The notes beneath the pieces are model-generated. The model did no database searches, was not told the DNA's origin, and saw only the letters and a list, made by a program, of their open reading frames with translations. A program made the translations under genes and the position numbers. DNA of 64,000 bases from Acidobacteriota bacterium (GTDB lineage Bacteria; Acidobacteriota; Terriglobia; Acidiferrales; UBA7541), in assembly GCA_013289665.1 (NCBI GenBank), contig JABCZN010000007.1, positions 146,708 to 210,707 of the forward strand, in the 5' to 3' direction. This document shows positions 47,820-50,580 of this stretch, piece by piece. How positions within the stretch are numbered: the first letter of the stretch is position 1; each line of letters starts with the position of its first letter.

Positions 47820-49265
47820 GTGAAGATACTGCTGATTTCAACGTATGAGCTCGGAAGGCAGCCGTTCGGACTAGCTTCACCGGCGGCGTGGCTGCGGAAA
47901 CGCGGGCACAAAGTGAATTGCCTCGATTTGTCGCGGCAGGCGTTGAGCGAGCAGGCAGTGCGGGAAGCCGGGCTGATTGCGTTTTATGTGCCGATGCATA
48001 CGGCCACGCGGCTGATGTTGGAACTGCTGGAGCCGGTTCGGAGGAGCAATCCCACCGCACATCTGTGTGCATATGGTTTGTACGCACCACTGGCAGCGGA
48101 TAGCTTGCGTGCGGGTGGGATCGAGAGCCTGTTCGGCGGAGAATTTGAGCAAGCACTGGTGGATTTGGCGGAACACCTTTCCGGGCTTTCGGCGTTTCCG
48201 CAGATTCATCCGCTCGATTCGAATGTTTCGCTGGCGCGGCTTCGTTTCGTGACGCCGGATCGCTCGGATCTTCCTTCGCTTGTGAATTATGCCCATCTGG
48301 TGATGCCGGTGGGGGAGCACCGGCTGGTCGGATACACGGAGGCATCGCGCGGGTGCAAGCATTTGTGCCGGCACTGCCCGATTGTGCCGGTCTACAACGG
48401 CGTGTTCCGGATTGTGGATCGCGAAATTGTGCTGGCGGATATTCGCCAGCAGGTGGAGGCGGGAGCACAACACATCACGTTTGGCGATCCGGACTTTTTC
48501 AATGGCGTGGGCCACGCCGTGCCGCTGGTGGAAGCGCTGCACAGCGAATTCCCGCAGCTTAGCTATGACGTAACAATCAAAGTGGAACATCTGCGAGAGA
48601 ACGCGGAACTGTTGAAGACGTTGCGGGACACGGGTTGTCTTTTCATTGTTTCGGCGGTGGAGTCTCTGGACGATCACATTCTGAAGAAATTGCAGAAGGG
48701 GCATACCCGGGAAGATTTTTTCGGTGTGGTAGAGGAGTGCCGCCGGGTGGGGATCGCGCTCCAGCCGACGTTTGTGCCGTTCACGCCGTGGACCACATTT
48801 GAAAATTATCTGGACCTGCTGGCGCAACTCCGGCGATTGGAATTGATCGGAGCGGTGGCGCCGATCCAGTTGGCGATCCGGCTGCTGGTTACGGCAGGCT
48901 CGCGATTGCTGGAAATCGAAGAAGTGCGCAACCGGATCGGTCCGTTTGATGCGAAGTCGCTAATCTTTCCCTGGGAACACGGCGTTCCAGGAATCGACCG
49001 GTTGTCTGAAGAGCTCGAGGACATCGTGTCGGCGGCGGAGAAATCAAAGCAGAGTCGCGCCGCAATTTTCGAGAAGATCTGGCGCGCTGCGAACCGCGCC
49101 GCCGATCGGCGCATCGAAGAGAAGGATTTGCTGGTGCCCGCCACGGCGACAGGCGTGCCGTACCTGAATGAGCCCTGGTATTGTTGAGCGGAGCCGACGC
49201 GGGACCAGTTGGTCCCCATCACCAGAGCGAAGGAAGCGGTCAGGCAGGCAGAATCATTTCTATGA
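47820..49265 (+). CDS. B12-binding-like/radical SAM protein with CUAEP tail; predicted selenoprotein (TGA 49185-49187 read as Sec)
   Basis: CKHLCRHC radical SAM cluster motif. Nucleotides after the ORF-track end: TGT TGA GCG GAG CCG = C-U-A-E-P, then open reading [22 protein letters not shown] to TGA at 49263-49265. Hairpin at 49201-49216. Confidence 0.8.
49201..49216 (+). promoter_or_regulatory. putative bacterial SECIS hairpin
   Basis: GGGACC-AGTT-GGTCCC, perfect 6-bp stem and G-containing tetraloop, starting 14 nt after the TGA. Confidence 0.7.
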
Positions 49266-49275
49266 AGGCTGCGGA

Positions 49276-50580
49276 ATGAATTCCCCAAAGGTTCAACCGA
49301 GAATTCTTTTGTTCACTGCGAAGCTCGGTTACCAGACGCGCGCGTTTGACGCCGCCGCGAAAAAGCTCGGCGTGGATCTGGTATTTGTGACTGACCGGTG
49401 CCACCAGTTGGACGATCCATGGCACGACCGCGCGGTGCCGGTGCGATTTGAGGCGCCGGAAGAGGCTGCGTACGCGGTCATCAAGGAGCTGTCTCGGCTG
49501 CGCGTGGACGGCGTGCTGGCGCTCGGAGATCGGCCAACACTTGCGGCCGCGTATGTCACGAGGGGATTAGGGATCGAGCACAATCACCCGGCGAGCGTGG
49601 AGGCTTGCCGGAGCAAGTTGCGTCTGCGCGAAGTTTTTCGTGATGCCGGCTTGCCAACGCCCTGGTTTCGAAGCGTGCCGCTGCAAGCAATTCCCGAGCC
49701 TGCGCTGATGGGGATGGCGTATCCCTGCGTACTGAAGCCCATTTCGCTTTCGGCAAGCCAGGGAGTCGTTCGGGTGAACAATCGCGAGGAGTTCGTTGCG
49801 GGCGCCAACCGATTGAAACGGTTGCTGGAGTCGGCGGAAATACAGGCCACGCGGGATGCGAATCTGGACCGGATGATCGTGGAAGAGTATCTGCCCGGCA
49901 GGGAAGTGGCAGTGGAAGGCTTGCTGACAAGCGGGGAGCTACGAGTGCTGGCGATCTTCGACAAGCCGGATCCGCTGGAGGGGCCGTACTTCGAAGAGAC
50001 CATCTACGTCACGCCCTCCCGCTTGTCGGAGGTGGAACAGAGATTGATCAAGGAGAGTTTCGTCGATGCGGCTCGGGCGCTGGGGCTCACGCACGGACCA
50101 GTGCACGGAGAGTTTCGGCTGAATGAGCGTGGGGTGTGGCCTATAGAGGTTGCGGCGCGGCCGATCGGCGGACTGTGTGCGCGTGCGCTCAGGTTCCAGT
50201 TGGAAAATGAAACGGAGCCAATCGGATTGGAGGAGTTGTTGTTGCGTCACGCGTTGAATCTTCCGGGTCGAGATGCGCCGCGGGAAACGGCTGCCTCCGG
50301 CGTCCTGATGATTCCCGTCCCCAGAAGTGGTGTCCTGGAAAAGGTGGATGGAGCGGAAGAGGCGCGAGCGGTGGCCGGGGTGACGGAGTTGGAGATTACC
50401 GCACGGTGCCGCGATTATATTGCGGCGTGGCCTGAGGGAGCGAGCTACCTGGGATTCCTGTTTGCGAGAGGCGAGAGACCTGTCGAGGTCGAGAATGCAC
50501 TTCGCGAAGGTCATGCGAAGCTACACTTCAGGCTTACGCCGAGGCTCCCGGTGGAGCATCCAGTGACGGGGAAGGTATAG
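49276..50580 (+). CDS. ATP-grasp ligase
   Basis: ATG AAT TCC at 49276; CVLKPISLSASQGVVRV, IVEEYLPGREVAVEGL, PVHGEFRLNERGVWPIEVAARPIGG. Confidence 0.88.
   Translation: MNSPKVQPRILLFTAKLGYQTRAFDAAAKKLGVDLVFVTDRCHQLDDPWHDRAVPVRFEAPEEAAYAVIKELSRLRVDGVLALGDRPTLAAAYVTRGLGIEHNHPASVEACRSKLRLREVFRDAGLPTPWFRSVPLQAIPEPALMGMAYPCVLKPISLSASQGVVRVNNREEFVAGANRLKRLLESAEIQATRDANLDRMIVEEYLPGREVAVEGLLTSGELRVLAIFDKPDPLEGPYFEETIYVTPSRLSEVEQRLIKESFVDAARALGLTHGPVHGEFRLNERGVWPIEVAARPIGGLCARALRFQLENETEPIGLEELLLRHALNLPGRDAPRETAASGVLMIPVPRSGVLEKVDGAEEARAVAGVTELEITARCRDYIAAWPEGASYLGFLFARGERPVEVENALREGHAKLHFRLTPRLPVEHPVTGKV

Follow-up and report, generated by a model that had tools for sequence, protein, structure and literature searches.

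A 64,000-nucleotide stretch of Acidobacteriota DNA (hereafter the window) carries on its forward strand a gene for a 481-residue CUAEP-tail radical SAM selenoprotein (47820–49265, GTG start, predicted Sec456). The apparent stop within this gene, UGA at 49185–49187, is almost certainly read as selenocysteine, which would yield the full-length enzyme. Taken together, the predicted decoding of this UGA as Sec, the membership of the protein in family NF040546 and its pairing with an L-amino-acid ligase are very likely correct, the chemistry of the pair being a separate matter.

Reading Frame and Coding Tail

The open reading frame at 47820–49262 has a single interruption, the TGA at 49185–49187. 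When the sequence was re-read, TGT TGA GCG GAG CCG was found at 49182–49196 (TGT at 49182–49184), so that the CUAEP motif occupies residues 455–459 of the read-through product. As the first-pass annotation had claimed, the in-frame TGA follows TGT and is itself followed by AEP within 25 sense codons (49188–49262, forward strand) that lead to the final stop TGA at 49263–49265. This coding tail is overlooked by standard annotation and is kept in relatives. The ATG of the next gene was found at 49276, in agreement with the stated 10 nt past the corrected end. Within the radical SAM domain protein (PF04055), the CxxxCxxC motif of the [4Fe-4S] cluster (Cys179/183/186; 48354–48377, forward strand) has invariant cysteines in an alignment of 40 relatives, in which the N-terminus was also conserved.

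Family NF040546 and Exchange of Sec and Cys

The read-through product matched the NCBIfam model NF040546, "CUAEP/CCAEP-tail radical SAM (seleno)protein", over its full length with 614.9 bits (cut-off 500), and the family named in the first-pass annotation is thus the right one. The family is already catalogued, and the gene of the window is a new member of it, with a C-U-A-E-P tail encoded with UGA and no difference at the family level. Alignment of homologues placed Cys (TGC or TGT) exactly at the UGA column, as had been anticipated; in relatives with a readable tail, this column holds either UGA or Cys, and the following AEP is kept in all of them, with a few SEP variants. The tail motif was C-[UGA or Cys]-[A or S]-E-P wherever it could be read (about 100 relatives), the patterns used to find tails having admitted other residues only partly, so that rare exceptions were possibly missed. 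When the tail was left out of tree building, at least 11 changes between Sec and Cys were counted, 8 of them forced by well-supported branches. Sec and Cys thus swap readily, and no other residue was seen.

In a sample of the phylum, 61 of 396 genomes contained a protein above the NF040546 cut-off. A search of a named collection yielded 80 loci, mainly from Acidobacteriota and also from Methylomirabilota, Tectomicrobia, Chloroflexota, Planctomycetota and Actinomycetota, and the phage collection contained no relatives. A literature search for the word CUAEP returned no paper, and the accession NF040546 is absent from a 2026 selenoproteome review. No published function was found for the family, which had already been described as uncharacterised.

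SECIS Hairpin

A putative bacterial SECIS hairpin, GGGACC-AGTT-GGTCCC, lies at 49201–49216 on the forward strand. It consists of a perfect 6-bp stem (GGGACC at 49201–49206 and GGTCCC at 49211–49216) and an AGTT loop (49207–49210) with GU in it. The first-pass annotation was right about the perfect stem and about the early loop G (position 2), but its 14-nt distance from the TGA needs correction, the spacer being 13 nt. Because an Rfam search of the window gave no match, the hairpin was tested directly for pairing, stability and covariation.

Among 75 distinct UGA tails, each scored in the better of two stem registers, all six pairs were formed in 54, five in 20 and four in 1. On average, 5.7 of 6 pairs were formed; the 28 Cys tails, in which the hairpin generally does not form, reached a mean of 3.6 (p = 3e-13), and sliding the stem gave about 3. 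When compared with synonymous recodings that followed each gene's own codon usage, the real sequences of UGA members were more stable (mean −10.9 vs −6.2 kcal/mol), whereas those of Cys members had no excess stability (−4.2 vs −4.2 kcal/mol). Covariation was assessed on sequences hand-picked for diversity. In the class with a 5-nt loop, compensatory changes occurred at four of the six pairs, and pairing was 97.5%, versus 53% at best when slid; the class with a 4-nt loop, to which the window belongs, had compensatory changes at three of the six pairs, a weaker support of like sign. The loop G was present in every UGA member (75/75) and in 20 of the 28 Cys members. The conservation of the hairpin and of the tail exceeds chance. 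The hairpin at 49201–49216 very likely directs the insertion of Sec at the UGA at 49185.

Selenocysteine Machinery

The search of the genome for sel genes, proposed in the first-pass annotation, succeeded in part. A typical tRNA-Sec with a long variable arm (62.6 bits) and SelA (554 bits) were found, but the assembly, which is 77% complete, yielded neither SelB nor SelD. The own-genome matches to SelB and SelD were rejected, as they proved by size and sequence to be IF-2, CysN, LepA and PurM. Both SelB and SelD are present in the two nearest relatives (81% and 77% protein identity); in the nearer one (81%), a single contig carries both selB and selD, and selB has pyrF and pyrD nearby. The ortholog of pyrD, a core gene, is missing from the own assembly too, which fits an assembly gap, and the absence of SelB and SelD is probably due to the incompleteness of the assembly.

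The missing SelB and SelD would also fit a true stop, in an organism that has lost Sec decoding and in which the protein ends at Cys455. We regard this as highly improbable: the genome retains an intact tRNA-Sec and SelA, the hairpin and the coding tail are likewise intact, the near relatives have a complete Sec machinery, and the missing pyrD, near selB in those relatives, speaks for a gap. The earlier proposal that the UGA probably encodes selenocysteine is thus supported by the hairpin, by the Cys-aligned homologues and by the presence of tRNA-Sec and SelA.

At the level of genomes, SelB accompanied the UGA form in 36 of 38 cases and the Cys form in 16 of 22, and it occurred in 8 of 20 genomes without the family (Fisher p 0.04 and 9e-6), these being hand counts over related genomes that are not independent. 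It should also be noted that in many of these genomes (noted at L154, L155 and L156) an in-frame TGA occurs within SelD itself, and SelD is therefore probably a selenoprotein there.

The Downstream L-Amino-Acid Ligase

The gene at 49276–50580 (forward strand) encodes an ATP-grasp L-amino-acid ligase with the domains PF13535 and PF18603 (LAL_C2) and a predicted LAL fold. Its best matches in the PDB were BL00235 (3vot, a 235-bit profile match) and BacD, and the comparison of its fold with BL00235 gave a Foldseek E of 4e-34, the structural match having about 27% identity. BL00235, a dipeptide ligase, is thus its nearest match both by profile and by fold. The ATP-grasp fold and LAL_C2 are common to the window ligase and these two enzymes, from which it differs in its pairing with a radical SAM enzyme.

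This pairing is near-obligate. Among the 396 genomes, 63 had both genes, 5 only the ligase (one of them a weak match), 2 only the radical SAM gene and 326 neither (p 2e-64); the count was made by hand, and both genomes with the radical SAM gene alone are less than 75% complete. In many genomes the two genes lie on different contigs. Of 14 genomes selected mainly for their non-adjacent genes, 13 contained the ligase, and only Nonomuraea lacked it at that threshold. It was the sole conserved neighbour beyond general synteny, as the flanks of relatives held no third conserved partner. The near-obligate ligase is absent from any description of the family that we found.

Upstream, the ligase frame stays open as far as an ATG at 49168 (49168–50580) and so overlaps the region of the Sec codon in another frame, and a gene caller may choose this false start. 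At four loci, an unidentified protein is encoded by a gene that begins close to where the radical SAM gene ends; at one of them (L115), this protein has 238 aa and its gene, about 101–817 nt after the Sec codon, lies between those of the radical SAM protein and the ligase.

Kinship to ArsL and Proposed Chemistry

The second-best family for the radical SAM protein was ArsL (NF040542; 263.5 bits, below the cut-off of 450), with 31–35% identity over about 400 aa, and the CUAEP family is the sister of ArsL. In the arsinothricin pathway, ArsL is predicted to transfer the SAM aminocarboxypropyl group to arsenite (PMC8552651). The two families share their domain layout and a C-terminal vicinal pair (CC or CU), but ArsL has a tail about 40 residues shorter, without Sec, which ends in RCCLKC, and this end is absent from the window protein. 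Furthermore, ArsL genes lie amid ars genes, whereas the CUAEP gene does not: no homologues of ArsM, ArsN, ArsR, ArsB or ArsQ were found within about 10 kb in the flanks of relatives, the sole arsenic gene there being an ArsC 3.3 kb away at one locus (L095). The ArsS-type radical SAM selenoprotein (TIGR04167), which also carries Sec according to a review (PMC13188914), belongs to a different family with a reported Sec motif GxxU, and the window protein does not match TIGR04167.

Clusters of the ArsL type on plasmids of Priestia and Alicyclobacillus (L149:2430–3964 and L150:2118–3668) also contain two further genes, one of the ATP-grasp type and one resembling carboxymuconolactone decarboxylase, which may point to a peptide-linked arsinothricin. 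Orthology of the ATP-grasp genes in these clusters with the window ligase was rejected at about 23–24% identity, so that these ligases are analogous and not established as orthologs.

Based on the above, we suggest the following scheme. The radical SAM enzyme, with its Cys-Sec-Ala-Glu-Pro and short tail, would act with the downstream ligase. It would make an unusual amino acid derived from SAM, the Cys-Sec pair would handle a soft element, and the ligase would join the product to another amino acid to form a dipeptide. An amino acid derived from SAM and subsequently ligated is the simplest reading of the kinship to ArsL, the vicinal Cys/Sec and the presence of an amino-acid ligase; as a statement about chemistry, we put this scheme forward tentatively, as one that may well be wrong. 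More doubtful still is its extension to a widespread two-enzyme pathway, present in Acidobacteriota as well as several further phyla and separate from arsenic resistance: the selenoenzyme would build an unusual element-containing amino acid from SAM, Sec would grip the element being alkylated, and a dedicated ligase would make the dipeptide.

An arsinothricin-type arsenic compound that is then linked to a peptide appears unlikely as the product. The sister relationship to ArsL and the ATP-grasp genes in the plasmid clusters would agree with it, but the ligases of those clusters are distant from that of the window, and the lack of ars genes beside the CUAEP gene speaks against arsenic being the normal substrate.

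In the structure comparison, the nearest solved folds of the radical SAM protein were AprD4 and the B12 enzymes OxsB and TsrM, which keeps a conventional radical mechanism in play. Such an enzyme, of the 5'-deoxyadenosyl-radical or B12 type, would modify an amino acid or peptide, with the Cys-Sec tail as a hydrogen-atom donor or redox pair and not as a metalloid ligand, and the ligase would use that amino acid. The invariant, canonical CxxxCxxC motif and the lack of arsenic genes nearby are consistent with it as well, but the kinship to ArsL is far closer (263 bits) than that to AprD4 and the B12 enzymes (45 bits or less); we consider this mechanism a serious contender, though somewhat short of probable. 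The tail was modelled with low confidence: residues 431–480 had a pLDDT of about 52–76 on average, which counts against the main explanation, and the approach of the tail to the active site therefore stays hypothetical.

Consequences for Annotation and Function

In Thermomicrobium roseum DSM 5159 (NC_011961.1, L148:7935–9371), the annotated protein WP_012643191.1 ends exactly at the UGA. Beyond this codon, the DNA encodes AEP and contains a strong hairpin; WP_012643191.1 is therefore probably a truncated selenoprotein in the public annotation. This case bears out the earlier expectation that standard annotation would cut the protein at Sec; such annotation strips Sec and the tail from CUAEP proteins. 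The points new to the present work are the near-obligate ligase, the covariation of the SECIS hairpin, the switching between Sec and Cys and the T. roseum protein that stops at UGA.

The family is almost always accompanied by one enzyme that forms peptide bonds, which makes its function testable: with the near-obligate ligase and the relationship to ArsL, this functionally uncharacterised family becomes accessible to an assay of two proteins. If the two-enzyme pathway is true, it would represent a new route to a natural product or a cofactor.
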